Assembly (NCBI GenBank): GCA_003152315.1
Contig: PLZV01000040.1
Coordinates: 1-41,439, forward strand
Source: Verrucomicrobiota bacterium
GTDB taxonomy: Bacteria > Verrucomicrobiota > Verrucomicrobiia > Palsa-1439
Length of the DNA: 41,439 nucleotides
Reading direction: 5' to 3'
The translations under genes were made by a program, and so were the position numbers. Under the pieces are notes generated by a model that made no database searches, was not told where the DNA came from, and saw only the letters and a program-made list of their open reading frames with translations. Shown here piece after piece: positions 31,097-41,085 of this stretch (its first letter is position 1; every line of letters begins with the position of its first letter).

Positions 31097-32074
31097 ATGA
31101 CAAAGAAGGCGTTGGGCAGGGGACTGGATTCACTGATTAGTGGCGGGGTCGTTCGTAGCGTGGCGGCCGAACCTCCTCACGTGGAAGTCGCCACCGCGTC
31201 TCCCGCGACGAACGTAGTTCAACCACTTGGTTCGAGACTGGCCAGCACCGATGGCGAGAGCGACCGTAATGCGGTTCGCTACCTCGGCATCGACACGATT
31301 GAACGCAGCCGCTTTCAACCGCGCACCGATTTTGATCCGGAGCAACTCCGCGAGTTGGCCGATTCCATCAAACAACGCGGCGTCATCCAGCCGTTGCTGG
31401 TACGGCCGTTGGGTGCGACCGATGGCACGCGTCGCTACGAACTGATTGCCGGCGAACGCCGCTGGCGGGCCGCGCGAGAAGCGGGGCTGGCAACGATTCC
31501 CGCCATCGTGCGCGAGGCGAATGACCAGGAAGCGCTCGAAATCGCACTCATCGAAAACCTGCAGCGCGAAGATCTCAATGCGGTTGAAGAAGCGCGGGCG
31601 TACGAACAGCTTTCCACGCAGTTCAAACTGACCCAGGAGCAAATCGCCGAAAAAGTCGGGCGCAGCCGCGCGGCGGTAGCGAATTCGATGCGTTTGCTCG
31701 GTTTGCCGGGGGAAGTGCAGTCGTGGATTGCCGATAACCGGCTCAGCGTCGGCCACGCCAAGGCGATTCTGGGGCTGGCTAATCCGTCGGAACAGCGGCT
31801 GGTTGCGGAGCGCGTGCTAAAGCGTAATCTCACGGTGCGTGAGACGGAGCAACTCGTAGAACAGCTCAAGGGTGAAGCGAAAGTCCGCGCCCGCACATTG
31901 GGCGGGGTGGCGAAATCGACGCACGTTCTGGCCGTAGAAGAGCGACTACAGCAGAAGCTTGGAACCCACGTCAGCGTTTATCACGGCAAGAAAAAGGGCC
32001 GCATCGAGATTGAGTATTACGGGAACGACGATCTCGCGCGCCTGCTCGGCATCCTCGGCATTGACAATCTCTAG
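31097..32074 (+). CDS. parB: ParB-family chromosome partitioning protein
   Basis: 325 residues. The N-terminal tag KKALGRGLDSLISGG normally contacts ParA; the ParB/Srx CTPase domain follows (RSRFQPRTDF, LADSIKQRGVIQPLLVRP, ELIAGERRWRAAREAG, and the HTH segment TQEQIAEKVGRSRAAVANSMRLLGLP in order), then a dimerising C-terminus. ParB binds parS sites and CTP and loads SMC. No parA lies upstream in this window, although the ParA-binding tail is kept, and no parS-like TGTTTCACGTGAAACA was seen. It is followed after 21 bp by the M48 protease. Confidence 0.95.
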   Translation: MTKKALGRGLDSLISGGVVRSVAAEPPHVEVATASPATNVVQPLGSRLASTDGESDRNAVRYLGIDTIERSRFQPRTDFDPEQLRELADSIKQRGVIQPLLVRPLGATDGTRRYELIAGERRWRAAREAGLATIPAIVREANDQEALEIALIENLQREDLNAVEEARAYEQLSTQFKLTQEQIAEKVGRSRAAVANSMRLLGLPGEVQSWIADNRLSVGHAKAILGLANPSEQRLVAERVLKRNLTVRETEQLVEQLKGEAKVRARTLGGVAKSTHVLAVEERLQQKLGTHVSVYHGKKKGRIEIEYYGNDDLARLLGILGIDNL

Positions 32075-34197: not shown

Positions 34198-36180
34198 ATG
34201 GAGGACAAGCTCCAAGTACTTGAGAACGTGCCAGTTCTGGCCAGCCTTGGCGAGGAGTTGATGAAAGGCCTGGCCGAGCGCGCTGAATTTGTCGCGGTCA
34301 AGAAGGGCGACCTTGTTGTGCGCGAAAATGACCCTGGTGACGCGCTTTACGTTGTCGTTTCGGGTCGACTGCAGGCCTACACGCGGCTCAAGAGCGGACG
34401 GGACCGCATTTTTGCCACTTACTGTGACGGCGATTGTTTTGGCGAGATGCCGTTGCTGAGTGGTGAAACGCATTGGGCGAATGTGCGCGCGCTCAACGAT
34501 TCGATGCTCCTGAAGATCCCGCGTGAGGATTTCGATTCCGTCGTTAATCGCGACCCCCGCGTGGCGATCAGTTTCAGTCAACGGCTCGGGCACCGCATCA
34601 AGGAACTTCGTGAAGAGAAGCATCGTGCCAAGCGGAGCACGATCATCTCACTCTACGGCTCCCTGCCCGACACTGGGAAAACGACCCTTGCGCACAATCT
34701 GGCCGCCAGCCTCGCCCACGAAACTCGCGAGCCCGTATTGCTCCTCGATTTTAGCGGCAAACAGCGCGGCGTGCCGCTTTCGAAATGCGAGCGGCTCGAT
34801 TTTCGCAGTGGTCTCGGGTTGCAGGACATCACGGTGCATTCCCCGCTTGGTTACGACCGCTTGAATCTCGACCTCGTGGGTGACGAGCGCGAGATCGCGC
34901 TCATCGCGCCGGTATTCGGCCACCTGGTGAAGCACTACGACTACGTGATTTGTGATCTTCCCAATGCAGTCTCCGCGTCCGTGTTCGCCTGCCTCGTACA
35001 ATCAGACCAGGTATTCGTCATCGCCAAGTACGACGATGAACACCTTTACCGCACGAAGCTGTTGCTGGAGGATTTTCGTTCCCACGCAGCGGCGCGCGAG
35101 CCGCAGGTGCGGGTGATCCTCACGGCGGTCGGGGACGCCAGTGCGCCCTATGTGGAGGAAGCCGAGAGGAAAGTTGGACAGCCGATTGCGTATCTCTTGC
35201 GCTGGATTCCTGAGTCCGAGGTCGTCGAGGCGGTCGACGGGACTCCCTACGCGATTCGGAAGCCGATGGAGCCGTACAGTCTGGTGGTGCGTCGGATGGC
35301 GCGCGAACTGGGCAACGTGCTGGTTGGGTTGGCGCTGGGCACGGGTGGCGCGCGCGGCCTGGCACACATTGGCGTCATCCGCGTGTTGGAACGAGAGGGG
35401 ATTGCCATCGACATGGTGGCGGGCAGTTCGATGGGCGCCCTCATTGCGGCGGCGTGGGCTGTTGGAAAGAATGCTGACGAGATGGAGGAGATCGCCAAGC
35501 AGATACGCAACAAGCGGACGTTTCTGAAATTGCTGGACCCGATGTTTCCCGGCGCGGGCATCTTTCGCGGTATCAAGGTGTACAATTTCCTGCAATCGAT
35601 CGTGGACGGGTTGACGTTTGCCGATACGCTCATTCCCCTGAAGATCGTTGCCAGTGACATCAACACGCTTGAAGAAATTGTGTTTGAAGACGGCAAGCTC
35701 ATCGATGCGATCCGCGCCAGTATCACGATTCCCGGTATCTTCCGTCCCGTGGTGACCAACGGACATACGCTGATCGACGGCGGCATCACCGATCCCGTGC
35801 CCGTGCAAGTGCTCGCGCACGCGGGCGTTGCGAAGATCATTGCCGTGAACACCATTCCCAATGTCGACGAGATGAAACAGCGCGAGCGCTACCGCAACGA
35901 GAGGTCGCTGGCGTCCCGGAAGGAACGCAAGGACGGGATGCGTGAGACGGGGCCGGTCGTCGACACCCCGACCAGCCTCATCAATGTTTACATGCGCTCC
36001 ATGCACGCGATGCAATCGCGGATGGCGGAAGTTGCCTGCACCAACGCCGACGTGGTGATTCGCCCGATCCTCGCCGACAGTGTGTGGTACGATTTTTATC
36101 ATCCCGAGCGCTACATTCGGTGCGGGGAAGAGGCGGCGCAGGCTGCGTTGCCTCTGCTGAAGGGGCTGGTGGGACGATGA
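34198..36180 (+). CDS. cNMP-binding / MinD-like / patatin phospholipase fusion (NTE-like)
   Basis: 660 residues in three parts. About 5-130 is a cyclic-nucleotide-binding domain (VVRENDPGDALYVVVSGRLQ, GDCFGEMPLLSGE). About 147-370 is MinD/ParA-like: P-loop GSLPDTGKTT (154-163, without the deviant-Walker signature lysine), LLLDFSG and YDYVICDLPN. About 375-650 is a patatin domain: GTGGARG oxyanion loop (381-387), nucleophile S411 in GSSMG and D527 in DGG. The order matches eukaryotic neuropathy-target-esterase-type lysophospholipases, where the middle part is degenerate. The start at 34198 follows GGGAAGGA. Its stop overlaps the downstream ligase (ATGA). Confidence 0.9.
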   Translation: MEDKLQVLENVPVLASLGEELMKGLAERAEFVAVKKGDLVVRENDPGDALYVVVSGRLQAYTRLKSGRDRIFATYCDGDCFGEMPLLSGETHWANVRALNDSMLLKIPREDFDSVVNRDPRVAISFSQRLGHRIKELREEKHRAKRSTIISLYGSLPDTGKTTLAHNLAASLAHETREPVLLLDFSGKQRGVPLSKCERLDFRSGLGLQDITVHSPLGYDRLNLDLVGDEREIALIAPVFGHLVKHYDYVICDLPNAVSASVFACLVQSDQVFVIAKYDDEHLYRTKLLLEDFRSHAAAREPQVRVILTAVGDASAPYVEEAERKVGQPIAYLLRWIPESEVVEAVDGTPYAIRKPMEPYSLVVRRMARELGNVLVGLALGTGGARGLAHIGVIRVLEREGIAIDMVAGSSMGALIAAAWAVGKNADEMEEIAKQIRNKRTFLKLLDPMFPGAGIFRGIKVYNFLQSIVDGLTFADTLIPLKIVASDINTLEEIVFEDGKLIDAIRASITIPGIFRPVVTNGHTLIDGGITDPVPVQVLAHAGVAKIIAVNTIPNVDEMKQRERYRNERSLASRKERKDGMRETGPVVDTPTSLINVYMRSMHAMQSRMAEVACTNADVVIRPILADSVWYDFYHPERYIRCGEEAAQAALPLLKGLVGR

Positions 36181-37631
36181 AATGGGACCGTCTGACGCCG
36201 GCGGAGCAACGCCGCACCCAGAATGAGAAGCTTCATCACTATTTTACGGAAGTCATCGGCCCGTTCAGTCCCTACTACAAGAAGCTCTTCGCCGAGCATA
36301 AGATCGACGCGCGCCACATTAAAACGGTCGATGACTTGCGGCGTCTGCCGTTCACCAGCAAAGCTGATTTGCTCCCAACTTCCGAACAACCGGAGAAATT
36401 TCGCGAGTTCATCATCACGCCGGACATCTCAGTGCTCAAACATCGCCCGCGTATCGTCGCGGAAGCGCTCTTACGCGGTCGAAGCGCGGTGGAGCGGCGC
36501 TTCGAGCGCGAATATCGCCCGATTTTTCTGACTGCCACCACGGGCCGTAGCGCCGCACCCGTCGCCTTCACGTACACCGATTACGACATGCGCAATCTTC
36601 GCACGGCAGGCGCGCGGATCATTCAAGTGTTCGGCGCCACGACGAAGATGCGCGGCGTGAATATGTTTCCTTACGCGCCGCATCTCGCGTTCTGGCAGGT
36701 GGTGTTCGCGGGACTGGAGTTTGGCATGTTGCTCGTCAGTTCGGGCGGCGGCAAGGTGATGGGCACTGAGGGCAACATCAACCTCATCGAGAAGATCAAG
36801 CCCGAGGCGATTGTCGGTATCCCGACGTTCGTGTATCACGTTATCCGCGAAGCACACGCCCAAGGCCGCAAATGGCCGCAGGTCTGCAAGATCGTACTCG
36901 GCGGCGAGAAGAGTCCGCAGGGTATCCGCCGCAAGATGGTTTCCATGCTGCAGGAGATGGACGCGGGCGAGGTACGCGTTTGCGGGACGTACGGTTTTAC
37001 GGAGGCGCGGCTGGCATGGGGCGAATGTCCAACACCGCCGGGTGAATGGAGCGGCTATCATTTGCTTACCGATCTCGGCATCATGGAGGTGATCGATCCC
37101 GAAACGGGCGAAGTCAAGGGCGAGGGCGAGCCGGGCGAACTGGTGTACACGCCGCTCGACGCACGCGGTACGGTTGTGCTGCGTTATCGCACGGGCGATT
37201 ATGTGGATGGCGGGGTGACCTGGGAGCCGTGTCCGTATTGCGGACGCACGGTGCCGCGCATTGTCGGCAAGATCGGGCGGGCATCCAGCACGAAGGAATT
37301 GCAACTGGAAAAACTGAAGGGGACACTCGTCAATTTCGATACACTCCAGCAGATTCTCGACGACACGGCGGAGGTCGGCGAGTGGCAATTGGAGATTCGC
37401 AAGGTCCACGACGATCCGCATGACGTGGATGAACTGATTTTGCATATCGCGCCCGAGAATGGCGCCGATGTGGAACGACTCAAGGAAAAGATTCGGACGC
37501 GTTTCCAAACCGAGATCGAGATGACGCCCAATCGCATCGAGATCCATTCGCTCGGCGATATACTGAAGCGCATCAAACTGGAAAGCTCGTTGAAGGAAGT
37601 CCGTGTCCTGGATGCGAGGCCGAGGGAGTGA
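36177..37631 (+). CDS. Phenylacetate-CoA-ligase-like (PaaK-type) adenylate-forming enzyme
   Basis: 484 residues of the acyl-adenylate-forming superfamily, PaaK branch. Motifs: an ATP-binding loop variant in FLTATTGRSAAPVAFTYTD, VGIPTFVYHVIREA, ILGGEKSPQG-like KIVLGGEKSPQG, YGFTEARLAWGECP, VLRYRTGDYVDGG, a CPYCGR zinc-like motif and the C-terminal IGRASSTKELQLEKLKGTLV in order. It would activate an aromatic or fatty acid to an acyl-AMP, usually then the CoA thioester; no paa genes are nearby, so the substrate is open. ATG at 36177 overlaps the stop of the patatin fusion, suggesting coupled production. Confidence 0.88.
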   Translation: MKWDRLTPAEQRRTQNEKLHHYFTEVIGPFSPYYKKLFAEHKIDARHIKTVDDLRRLPFTSKADLLPTSEQPEKFREFIITPDISVLKHRPRIVAEALLRGRSAVERRFEREYRPIFLTATTGRSAAPVAFTYTDYDMRNLRTAGARIIQVFGATTKMRGVNMFPYAPHLAFWQVVFAGLEFGMLLVSSGGGKVMGTEGNINLIEKIKPEAIVGIPTFVYHVIREAHAQGRKWPQVCKIVLGGEKSPQGIRRKMVSMLQEMDAGEVRVCGTYGFTEARLAWGECPTPPGEWSGYHLLTDLGIMEVIDPETGEVKGEGEPGELVYTPLDARGTVVLRYRTGDYVDGGVTWEPCPYCGRTVPRIVGKIGRASSTKELQLEKLKGTLVNFDTLQQILDDTAEVGEWQLEIRKVHDDPHDVDELILHIAPENGADVERLKEKIRTRFQTEIEMTPNRIEIHSLGDILKRIKLESSLKEVRVLDARPRE

Positions 37632-37656
37632 TAGCAAGAGCAGTTTGCAGGTGAGA

Positions 37657-38223
37657 TTATTTCTTCGGTATAGGAAACTGCTCGTCCGCCGGCTTTAGTA
37701 GGGACCGCGACCACTGGAACGCGGCAAGCAGGTCGGTGGCAGACGAATCTAGTGCTTCTCTGTAATGATGTTGGTGTGGGTCGGGTACTTGTGGCACGCC
37801 GTTGCTGAAACCAAGAGTGCGCAGCTCTGATGAGAACTTGTCAAGCGGCCCGTAGGCGTAGAGCAGGTTGTGCCGGTCCCAGACAACTGTCGCGTTTTCG
37901 CTCCGCGAATGCGCCCAAAGATCGAAGCGTGCGTCTGCAGAGAGATAACTCTTGAATTGGCCAATGAATGCGTGAAATGTTTCGGACGATAGTTCAGGAC
38001 TTTGGTAGCGTCCTGGCTCCCCCTCGCCTCGGGGCGTGTGAAGCACATATAGCAAGGAATATGGTGCCTCTAGGGAGGAAACCAGTCGTTCGAATACTTC
38101 CGCATCGCCATGAGGCACGCCAGCTACAATACGACTCGTGGCTTTCAGCACAGACACCGAGAATATAGGAGGGAAGGAGTACTCCACCCATTCATTGCCC
38201 AACTTGTGTGAGAGTTTATGCAT
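37657..38223 (-). CDS. Protein of unknown function
   Basis: 188 residues, apparently soluble, no signal peptide. Visible motifs are EAPYSLLYVLHTPRGEGEPGRY, SPELSSETFHAFI, ARFDLWAHS, VVWDRHNLLYAYGPLDKF and PDPHQHHY. I do not recognise the family. The predicted fold is mixed alpha/beta with many aromatic residues. A -10-like TACAAT (38242-38237) lies 13 nt before the ATG, with no Shine-Dalgarno. The gene stands alone between a convergent operon and a REP/RAYT locus and could be accessory. Confidence 0.65.
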   Translation of the reverse strand: MHKLSHKLGNEWVEYSFPPIFSVSVLKATSRIVAGVPHGDAEVFERLVSSLEAPYSLLYVLHTPRGEGEPGRYQSPELSSETFHAFIGQFKSYLSADARFDLWAHSRSENATVVWDRHNLLYAYGPLDKFSSELRTLGFSNGVPQVPDPHQHHYREALDSSATDLLAAFQWSRSLLKPADEQFPIPKK

Positions 38224-38310
38224 CTGCGATCCAACTATTGTAATTGAGAAAACACTGTGTATATAGGGTGCAATCGCGGCTCTTATAGCCGTTTCACCAA
38301 ACCGACTTTA

Positions 38311-38334
38311 TGAAAACAGACCTGTAGGTTTTCA
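38311..38334. repeat. Short perfect inverted repeat
   Basis: TGAAAAC (38311-38317) and GTTTTCA (38328-38334) with a 10-nt loop. It lies upstream of the unknown 188-aa gene and 24 bp from the REP pair; a small operator or a hairpin are both possible. Confidence 0.3.
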
Positions 38335-38358
38335 TCAAGGATGATCGCTGTCGGGGAG

Positions 38359-38448
38359 TTTGGTAGGGCGGGCTGGCCCAGCCCGCCGCAGTTGTTGGCG
38401 GGATGTGTTGACGCGGCGCGGCGCGGTGGGCCACCGCGCCCTACCAAA
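38359..38448. repeat. Paired REP element (BIME-like), family B
   Basis: Two GC-rich palindromes face each other: GGGCGGGCTGGCCCAGCCCGCC (38366-38387, arms only quoted in part: GGCGGGCTGG and CCAGCCCGCC) and GGCGCGGTGG/CCACCGCGCC (38419-38440). They are enclosed by an 11-bp perfect inverted repeat TTTGGTAGGGC (38359-38369) and GCCCTACCAAA (38438-38448). The structure ends 6 bp from the stop codon of the RAYT gene. Confidence 0.8.
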
Positions 38449-38454
38449 TGACAT

Positions 38455-38907
38455 TCAGCTTGTCGTCGGCTGCCATACGTATGGCCAATCTTCGGGGCAA
38501 TTCACTAAACCTGCACGCACGGGGTTCATGCGAATGTAATCCTCTTTGTCGCGGAGACTCTCATCGTTACTTAAACGGTGGTCAAAGAAGTCGCGTTGCC
38601 AGCGGATTCCGAAATCGCGAGCCACGTATTTCTTCCATTCTGTCACGACAACTTTCATGTCTTTGTTTTCCGGGAAGTTTACCAGGGCGTGCAGATGGTC
38701 CGGCATCAAGAGAACAAAGTGCTTCCACCAATCGCCACGGTTGTGACGGAATGCGATGGATTCAAAAAGTTTTGCGGCGATGAGAGTCTCGCAGAGTTGA
38801 TTCTGACCACGGGGTTGGCAGCAGATGGTGATAAAGAACACAGCGTCTTCCTCGCGCACCCAAGAAGGTGCAACATGGGGCAATAGTTTCCGCTGCGGCT
38901 TGGTCAC
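38455..38907 (-). CDS. REP-associated tyrosine transposase (RAYT), intact
   Basis: A 150-residue Y1/HUH single-strand nuclease. DAVFFITICCQPRGQNQLC is the first strand region, MPDHLHALV carries the HUH metal pair (H-L-H), FFDHRLSNDESLRDKEDYIRMNPVRAGLV in order carries the catalytic tyrosine (DYIRMNP), and PEDWPYVWQ closes the protein as in other RAYTs. The start is GTG at 38907 without clear Shine-Dalgarno. It is flanked by REPs of family B on both sides and is a paralogue of the decayed copy at 1831-2321 (shared FFDH-L-DES and NPVRAGL blocks). RAYTs are vertically inherited, domesticated relatives of IS200/IS605 transposases. Confidence 0.92.
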   Translation of the reverse strand: MTKPQRKLLPHVAPSWVREEDAVFFITICCQPRGQNQLCETLIAAKLFESIAFRHNRGDWWKHFVLLMPDHLHALVNFPENKDMKVVVTEWKKYVARDFGIRWQRDFFDHRLSNDESLRDKEDYIRMNPVRAGLVNCPEDWPYVWQPTTS

Positions 38908-38970
38908 GTGGAATGCTTAGCAGTGGGTGCGAGAATAATCGAGAGGAGAAACACTGAGGAAGGACGAAGC

Positions 38971-38997
38971 GGCGCGGTGGGCCACCACGCCCTACCA
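38971..38997 (+). repeat. REP palindrome, family B, single copy
   Basis: GGCGCGGTGG/CCACCACGCC with tail CTACCA; one mismatch in the arm compared with 38419-38445. Same orientation as the right half of the paired element, on the N-terminal side of the RAYT gene. Confidence 0.8.
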
Positions 38998-39073
38998 CAG
39001 CGGTTTGGCGCGCGGGCTTCGTCGCGGCTAACGCGTTGCATTGGTGGGGAGTGCGTGTTAGCGTGAAGGCGTT

Positions 39074-39847
39074 ATGAGAACGCAATTGACAATTCTTTTC
39101 GCAGGACTGTTTGCCATGAACTCTTATGCCGCACTGCACACCGAGACCATCGAGTACAAACAAGGTGACACGACGCTGGAAGGCTATCTCGCGTACGACG
39201 ACGCGGTGAAGGGGCCGCGGCCGGGAGTGCTTGTCGTGCACGATTGGTTGGGGTGCGATAGCTACGCCAAAATGCGTGCCGATATGATTGCCAAGCTGGG
39301 TTACGTCGCGTTCGCGGCTGACATATACGGCAAGGGCGTGCGCCCGAAGAATCCGCAAGAAGCCGGCGCGCAGGCAGGCAAGTACAAGGGTGACCGCCCA
39401 TTGCTCCGCGCCCGCGTCAATGCCGCGCTCGACGTGCTGGAGAAGCAACCGCAGGTCGATACGAAACACGTCGCGGCCATCGGTTATTGCTTCGGTGGTA
39501 CCACGGTGCTCGAACTGGCTCGCAGCGGGGCCGATATTGCCGGCATCGTCACGTTCCATGGCGGACTCGACACGCCGACGCGCGACGCGAAGAACATCAA
39601 GTGCAAGGTGCTCCTCTGCCATGGCGCGGACGATCCGTACGTGCCGGCAGCGGATGTGGCCGCGCTGCAGGATGAACTCCGCTCCGCGAAAGTGGACTGG
39701 CAGATGATTTATTACAGTGGCGCCGTGCACAGCTTCACGCGGCCTGATTCTGGCAACGACAACTCGAAGGGCGCGGCCTACAACGAACACGCCGACAAAC
39801 GGTCGTGGGAAGCGATGAAGGAGTTTTTCGCAGAAATCTTCCGATGA
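39074..39847 (+). CDS. Dienelactone hydrolase family protein, exported
   Basis: 257 residues. A signal peptide (MRTQLTILFAGLFAMNSYA) is followed by a DLH-type alpha/beta hydrolase: GVLVVHDWLG, ADIYGKGVRP, the nucleophile C139 in GYCFGG, an acid at D186/D187 in HGADDPYVP and H219 in GAVHSFT. Cys-nucleophile DLHs open lactones such as dienelactone; many exported members have unknown substrates. GAAGG lies just before the ATG, and a weak TTGCAT/TAGCGT promoter-like pair (39036-39064) overlaps this region. Its stop overlaps the thiolase start (ATGA). Confidence 0.9.
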   Translation: MRTQLTILFAGLFAMNSYAALHTETIEYKQGDTTLEGYLAYDDAVKGPRPGVLVVHDWLGCDSYAKMRADMIAKLGYVAFAADIYGKGVRPKNPQEAGAQAGKYKGDRPLLRARVNAALDVLEKQPQVDTKHVAAIGYCFGGTTVLELARSGADIAGIVTFHGGLDTPTRDAKNIKCKVLLCHGADDPYVPAADVAALQDELRSAKVDWQMIYYSGAVHSFTRPDSGNDNSKGAAYNEHADKRSWEAMKEFFAEIFR

Positions 39848-41085
39848 CCCGACTGGCGATCATCGATGGGATTCGGACGCCGTTCTCCAAGGCCGTGACG
39901 GATTTGAAGTCCCTCCCCGCACAGGAACTCGGGCGCATCGTTGTGAGCGAGTTGCTGGAACGGACGGGATTCGATCCCCACAGGATTTCGCAGGTGATCT
40001 TTGGGTGCGTCGCGCAACCGCCGGAGGCGGCAAACATTGCGCGGGTCATTGCGCTTAATGCGGGACTACCGCAGGAGATTCCCGCCTACACCGTGCACCG
40101 CAACTGCGCGAGTGGTTTTGAGGCGATCACCAGCGCCTACGAGAAAACGGCCGCGGGCCAGGGGGATGCGTTTGTGGTTGGCGGCACCGAGAGCATGTCG
40201 AATATCCCGCTGCTGTTTTCGACGGCGGCGGCGGATAAGTTTGGGACGCTCGCGCGAGCGAAGTCGTCCCTGAAAAAGCTCGGCGCGATACTCGCTTTTC
40301 GCCCGCGCGATTTCAAACCGCGCATCGGGGTGATGCTCGGGCTGACGGATCCGGTGTGCGGTCTCAACATGGGCCAGACGGCGGAGGTCCTCTATCGCGA
40401 TTACGGCATCACCCGCGAACAACAGGATGCGTTTGCCCTCGACTCGCACCAGAAAGTGGTGAAGGCGCGGGGGAAACTGGCGGAAGAGATTGGCACGGTT
40501 TATCTGCCGAAGGGGCAGTATGTGGACAAGGACAATGGGGTGCGCGAGAACCAGACCATGGAAGCGCTCGCCAAGTTGCGGCCGGTGTTCGACAAGCACA
40601 ACGGGACCGTAACCGCCGGCAACTCGTCGCAACTCACCGACGGTGCGGTGGCGTTGTTGGTCATGGAGGAGGAGAAGGCGCGTAAGCAGGGTTTTCAACC
40701 GCTGGGGTATCTTCGGGGCTATGCCTTTGCGGGGGTTGATCCGCGGCGGATGGGGATTGGACCGGCCTACGCGATACCGAAGGCGCTGGAGAAGTCGGGC
40801 GTGAAGTGGAAGGACATCCAACTGCTGGAGATCAATGAAGCATTCGCAGTGCAGGTGCTGGCGGTGGAGTTGGTGCTGCGCAAGGAATTCGGCATGGAAA
40901 TCAACCGCGACCTGCTCAACGTCAACGGCGGGGCGATCGCGCTCGGTCATCCCGTGGGTGCCAGCGGCGCACGACTCGTGCTCACGCTGCTGAAGGAAAT
41001 GAAACGTCGCAACCTGAAAACGGGTCTCGCGTCCGCCTGCGTCGGCGGGGGACAAGGTGCGGCGCTAATCATGGAACGCGCCTGA
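39844..41085 (+). CDS. Thiolase (3-ketoacyl-CoA thiolase / acetyl-CoA acetyltransferase)
   Basis: 413 residues. The nucleophile C88 is in HRNCASGFEA; GGTESMSNIPLLFS, MGQTAEVLYRDYGI, GNSSQLTDGAVALLVM, EINEAFAVQV, GGAIALGHPVGASGARLVLTLL in order and SACVGGGQGAALIME with the second Cys complete the thiolase motifs. The long central insert (DKFGTLARAKSSLKKLGAI) resembles FadI-type thiolases of fatty acid oxidation, but no fadJ partner is in the window, so biosynthetic use is also possible. ATG 39844 overlaps the dienelactone hydrolase stop. Confidence 0.95.
   Translation: MTRLAIIDGIRTPFSKAVTDLKSLPAQELGRIVVSELLERTGFDPHRISQVIFGCVAQPPEAANIARVIALNAGLPQEIPAYTVHRNCASGFEAITSAYEKTAAGQGDAFVVGGTESMSNIPLLFSTAAADKFGTLARAKSSLKKLGAILAFRPRDFKPRIGVMLGLTDPVCGLNMGQTAEVLYRDYGITREQQDAFALDSHQKVVKARGKLAEEIGTVYLPKGQYVDKDNGVRENQTMEALAKLRPVFDKHNGTVTAGNSSQLTDGAVALLVMEEEKARKQGFQPLGYLRGYAFAGVDPRRMGIGPAYAIPKALEKSGVKWKDIQLLEINEAFAVQVLAVELVLRKEFGMEINRDLLNVNGGAIALGHPVGASGARLVLTLLKEMKRRNLKTGLASACVGGGQGAALIMERA

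Follow-up and report, generated by a model that had tools for sequence, protein, structure and literature searches.

Genes and features of the locus

The window is the whole stretch of DNA analysed here, 41,439 nucleotides of a contig from a draft Verrucomicrobiota genome (62 contigs), and its near relatives are Verrucomicrobia MAGs. A patatin gene overlaps a ligase gene, and two further genes of interest lie downstream. The features are as follows, all on the forward (+) strand.

34198..36180, +: gene of a patatin phospholipase like neuropathy target esterase (NTE), 660 aa (ATG start, open reading frame; cyclic-nucleotide-binding, P-loop-fold and patatin domains)
34294..34554, +: cyclic-nucleotide-binding (CNB) fold, residues 33–119 (cNMP_binding PF00027, 84.9 bits, E 3.8e-24)
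34636..35232, +: middle domain of MinD/ParA fold (SIMIBI), residues 147–345 (AAA_31, Soj sequence match, model)
34657..34686, +: P-loop GSLPDTGKTT, residues 154–163 (translation; kept intact by the window's family alone)
34942..34965, +: Walker B-like strand, residues 249–256, with DLPN (253–256) at its end (translation, alignment)
35323..36171, +: patatin domain and C-terminal extension, residues 376–658 (PF01734, E 1.1e-34)
36177..37631, +: PaaK-like AMP-forming acyl-CoA ligase gene, 484 aa (ATG start, open reading frame; ATGA overlap with the patatin gene)
39074..39847, +: dienelactone-hydrolase-family (DLH) protein (PF01738; a placement specific to the window's family, L096–L098)
39805..41085, +: FadA-type thiolase, third in the conserved operon described below (PF00108/PF02803, conserved order)

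The contig stops at 41439, before fadB, and the thiolase is the only fad-type operon gene on it. Between the ligase and DLH genes, about 1.4 kb (37632–39052) is absent from the same place in the sister genome G002. This segment contains a Y1/IS200-like transposase ORF (38455–38907, minus strand, below the Pfam cut-off) flanked by REP-like palindromes (38359–38448 and 38969–38997), and resembles a REP/RAYT-type insertion interrupting the operon. Three genes upstream of the patatin gene, a ParB-like protein is encoded (31097–32074), and no ParA gene was recognised beside it among the ORFs read. Its position near a protein with a ParA/Soj-like middle domain is probably a coincidence.

Domains of the patatin protein

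The order of the domains, CNB, P-loop-fold domain and patatin, is that of NTE (PNPLA6/7, SWS and yeast Nte1) and of the bacterial NTE-like proteins (PF24179). The sequence-only reading had described a cNMP sensor, a MinD-like domain and a patatin in this NTE-like order, and both the Pfam matches and the modelled fold of the middle domain agree with it. The patatin match covers residues 378–539 (120.8 bits). The nucleophile Ser411 is present in GSSMG and Asp527 in DGG, so that the Ser-Asp dyad is intact, and both residues are invariant among the Verrucomicrobiota proteins aligned over both positions. The orthologues of the 660-aa protein are 96, 88 and 65% identical to it. Read from the sequence, the N-terminus shows neither an obvious signal peptide nor an obvious membrane segment. 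Searches of plasmids with the patatin and ligase proteins detected no close relatives (all below 60% identity).

The CNB domain is the most conserved part of the protein, with 81% identity between the window and G006, the 65% orthologue. In the phosphate-binding cassette, Glu83 is present, and the canonical arginine for the cyclic phosphate is replaced by His92 in the window's family. The position is His or Tyr in the other Verrucomicrobiota three-domain copies, and the canonical arginine is found in two planctomycete three-domain proteins. Thus the 660-aa protein has only the Glu of the Glu and Arg pair which marks a canonical cAMP- or cGMP-binding CNB domain.

The middle domain and its P-loop

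The AAA_31 match over the middle domain is weak (29.2 bits against a cut-off of 27.0; 32.9 bits for the domain alone), and the middle-domain sequence also matches Soj (E 1.1e-5). The full-length AlphaFold model was discarded with a mean pLDDT of 39 in favour of a model of the middle domain by itself, which has a pTM of 0.66 and a mean pLDDT of 63 (moderate confidence). The alignments behind both models had three rows each. According to the structure search, the middle-domain model matches the folds of MinD, ParA/Soj, FlhG and the nitrogenase Fe protein. The best Foldseek match is 3ea0 (E 1.2e-9), and the model aligns with MinD 1hyq over 177 residues with a VIA Z of 12.0 and an rmsd of 3.5. The MinD/ParA fold expected from the sequence was thus recovered in the model.

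A full P-loop and a Walker B-like DLPN had also been claimed. Both motifs are present, but the intact P-loop is limited to the window's family: GKTT is found in all four members and in none of the 16 other Verrucomicrobiota relatives which keep the middle domain (L080, L081, L155–L166, L171 and the L082 fragment). The expected conservation of the P-loop in orthologues therefore ends at the family. By hhalign, the degenerate middle domains are homologous to the intact ones (99.7%). In the P-loop SLPDTGKTT, Leu156 occupies the position of the signature lysine and Ser155 that of the first glycine, so the domain does not have the deviant Walker A motif of MinD with the signature lysine (KGGxGKTT). 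Presumably, this P-loop reads more like those of BY-kinases.

Between the window and G006, the P-loop domain is 44% identical and the patatin domain 76%. GKTT is unchanged throughout the window's family despite synonymous codon changes (GGG/GGC, AAA/AAG and ACC/ACG/ACT). Asp184 is likewise kept between the window and G006, and Asp253 of DLPN is replaced by Glu in G006. These comparisons indicate that the P-loop is held by selection within the window's family, and the pattern fits a nucleotide-binding function retained in that lineage. The middle domain of this family can plausibly still bind ATP. On an unrooted ligase tree, GKTT may have been retained rather than regained.

PF24179 (NTE_Ploop) does not match the 660-aa protein, and the best match of the genome to this profile lies elsewhere (E 0.69). 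The middle domain aligns remotely to PF24179-positive alphaproteobacterial proteins (hhalign 94.7%, E 5.8e-8; reversed control 0.1%).

The ligase and the beta-oxidation operon

The ligase belongs to the AMP-binding superfamily (PF00501, 37.6 bits against a cut-off of 29.9) and has the motifs TTG, YGFTE and YRTGD and a Cys-containing loop. According to the family profile, its nearest solved relatives are phenylacetate-CoA ligases (4r1l, E 9.8e-35). None of the named NCBIfam equivalogs is matched; the best is FlxY (147 bits against a cut-off of 520), and the PaaK equivalog TIGR02155 gives 90 bits against 646. The family is discrete, since a profile search of 388 sampled Verrucomicrobiota genomes gave more than 600 bits in 21 of them and 122 bits for the next best. 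The window's genome also encodes a second, ordinary FadD-like ligase, so the PaaK-like ligase need not be the main fatty-acid ligase. At another place in this genome (G000, C31:26792-27286, L127), a LuxC-like long-chain acyl-CoA reductase match adjoins an AMP-binding match.

Profiles of both proteins were searched across Verrucomicrobiota, and 41 ligase loci and 37 loci of this patatin type were fetched. The ligase is directly downstream of the patatin on the same strand in 36 of the 37 patatin loci, the sole exception being the three-domain patatin of G448 (L171), which has no adjacent ligase. Conversely, 36 of the 41 ligase loci have the patatin directly upstream in the same orientation. Of the 36 paired loci, 28 have a ligase match that starts no later than the stop codon of the patatin. 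For comparison, 14 patatins from this phylum with lower scores (L066–L079) served as a control, and none of them has such a ligase within about 1.5 kb. The proposed coupling of the patatin to the ligase is thus stronger than had been suggested, and co-occurrence of the pair across genomes is far from rare.

Clustering of the neighbours gave a recurrent gene order of patatin, ligase, thiolase, a protein of about 700 aa and a protein of about 600 aa. By Pfam, these last three are a FadA-type thiolase, a FadB-type enoyl-CoA hydratase/3-hydroxyacyl-CoA dehydrogenase and a FadE-type acyl-CoA dehydrogenase. The complete five-gene order is found in loci from many families, and fadA, fadB and fadE follow the pair in most loci, so that most relatives have a beta-oxidation operon in one gene run. 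In G001 and G002, of the same genus as the window, fadB follows the thiolase. In the window's family fadE does not adjoin these genes, and in the family member G006 the 13 kb downstream contain neither fadA nor fadB. In the clustered neighbourhoods, the fad and ETF genes are the only catabolic set to recur from family to family. In the literature searched, which covers only part of the field, no description of a patatin–ligase–fad operon was found.

In one family (f12), five genomes carry the ligase together with the fad genes but have no adjacent patatin, so the operon can do without the patatin. Pfam matches near patatin-less copies include ETF alpha and beta, an Fe-S oxidoreductase and an XRE/IrrE-type regulator. 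The patatin-less copies L111–L113 and L115 adjoin this type of regulator, and DUF4442 thioesterase-like and ETF genes are nearby in several.

The N-terminal half among relatives

The N-terminal half of the patatin protein is found in both classes where the operon occurs. Three-domain copies are present in the window's class in the four genomes of the window's family and in G647, G706 and G562, and in another class in G212, G066, G448 and G158. The middle domain and patatin without the CNB domain are found in nine genomes. At 17 loci in the ligase tree, the whole N-terminal half is missing and the pair is kept. In G158, a two-contig genome, the three-domain patatin and the ligase are both broken by frameshifts or stops (L063/L082), which reflects either a decaying operon or sequencing errors.

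A rooted ligase tree was rejected with end branches of 8–10; the outgroups are too distant, so only unrooted groupings were used. The window's family forms one clade (100/100), and the deep branches are unresolved. The patatin-only state occurs in more than one place, and L168 groups with two-domain copies (99/95). Apparently, the N-terminal half has been repeatedly eroded: three-domain proteins were reduced to a pseudo-P-loop with patatin, and these to patatin alone.

Two three-domain proteins of Planctomycetota (L201 and L203) were rejected as members of the same system. Neither a P-loop nor, within the stretch fetched, a neighbouring ligase is present, and Asn replaces Ser at the Ser411 position (GTNVG/GANVG), so these patatins are likely pseudo-enzymes. 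Both keep the canonical CNB arginine.

Comparison with known systems

Degenerate P-loops are common to the alphaproteobacterial NTE-like proteins and most Verrucomicrobiota copies. The window's family differs from NTE and NTE-like proteins in the intact P-loop, the single CNB domain instead of three, the missing PF24179 match and the beta-oxidation operon. The patatin domain is shared with RssA-type patatins, and NCBIfam RssA is the best whole-protein match (139 bits); however, the 660-aa protein is below the cut-off (272) and has the N-terminal extension and the operon partner. The ligase shares the AMP-forming core (TTG, YGFTE, YRTGD and the Cys loop) with PaaK phenylacetate-CoA ligases, FlxY and F390 synthetases, but it is far under every equivalog cut-off and forms a separate fad-linked family. 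The middle domain has the fold, GKTT, the Walker A' Asp and the Walker B-like DLP in common with MinD/ParA/Soj and the bacterial tyrosine kinases (Wzc/Etk), whereas it has neither the signature lysine nor the C-terminal Tyr cluster and is fused between CNB and patatin.

Proposed function

The patatin and the ligase probably form an entry module, heading a Verrucomicrobiota operon for fatty-acid beta-oxidation. As judged from the Ser-Asp dyad and the family, the patatin would hydrolyse acyl esters of membrane or storage lipids to free fatty acids. The ligase, by its family, would convert these to acyl-CoA via acyl-AMP, and FadE, FadB and FadA, which are encoded downstream in most relatives, would oxidise the acyl-CoA. 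The substrate of the ligase is the weakest step of this pathway. The sequence-only reading had proposed that the ligase re-activates the released acid; the activation stands, but the purpose becomes activation for oxidation, because the pair heads a beta-oxidation operon. The NTE-like N-terminal half would be an accessory regulatory or positioning element.

A nucleotide-gated module for lipid turnover had been proposed as well. In the window's family, binding or hydrolysis of ATP by the P-loop domain, or else a ligand of the CNB domain, would switch the lipase, and lipid would be burned according to the energy state. The survival of GKTT through synonymous changes in a domain which has fallen to 44% identity makes a lineage-specific ATP role possible, and the kept Asp184, the strong conservation of the CNB domain and the modelled MinD/ParA fold point in the same direction. 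As a general purpose, gating is unsupported, because GKTT is absent from all 16 copies outside the family and the canonical CNB arginine is absent. The signature lysine is also missing, G006 has Glu in place of the Walker B Asp, and many operon copies have lost the CNB domain or the entire N-terminus. We regard gating as unlikely even for the window's family.

The pair could also make acyl-CoA mainly as a signal or for membrane repair, the operon disposing of the excess. In E. coli, fatty acids which PldA frees and FadD activates increase LPS production, an effect that does not need beta-oxidation (fadAB) (PMC5874903). This precedent resembles the present pair in that phospholipase-freed fatty acids are made into acyl-CoA, and the patatin, as an optional first gene, would suit a signalling or repair role. 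PldA and FadD are not encoded in an operon, however, and belong to unrelated enzyme families, and the role demonstrated in E. coli is signalling (PMC5874903). PldA is an outer-membrane enzyme, whereas the 660-aa protein, as noted above, has no obvious N-terminal signal peptide or membrane-spanning part. The conserved genes downstream of the present pair are all catabolic; we consider this explanation improbable.

Equally improbable is a role in the breakdown of some other acid (aromatic, branched or dicarboxylic), which the patatin would free from an ester as an esterase, the ligase would activate and the operon would degrade. The relationship of the ligase to phenylacetate-CoA ligases and the separate FadD-like ligase of the genome speak for this reading. 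Against it stand a score far below the PaaK equivalog cut-off and clustered neighbourhoods in which fad and ETF genes are the only recurrent catabolic set.

Returning to the entry module for beta-oxidation, the gene order ties NTE-like proteins to a defined pathway, from lipid to fatty acid, acyl-CoA and beta-oxidation, where the ligand and purpose of the NTE regulatory half are unsettled. A 2019 paper reported no evidence of direct cAMP binding to NTE (PMC6995513). It is rather doubtful that the P-loop domain of the window's family is a working ATP switch, lost elsewhere, which couples energy charge to the release of membrane or storage fatty acids into a dedicated beta-oxidation operon; if true, this would reveal the former role of the dead P-loop domain in eukaryotic NTE. 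The unnamed PaaK-like family is a candidate fatty acyl-CoA ligase. The relatives provide a natural series from three-domain proteins down to patatin alone, plus one lineage keeping the ATP site, and therefore the role of the N-terminal domains may be tested by comparing the natural forms.
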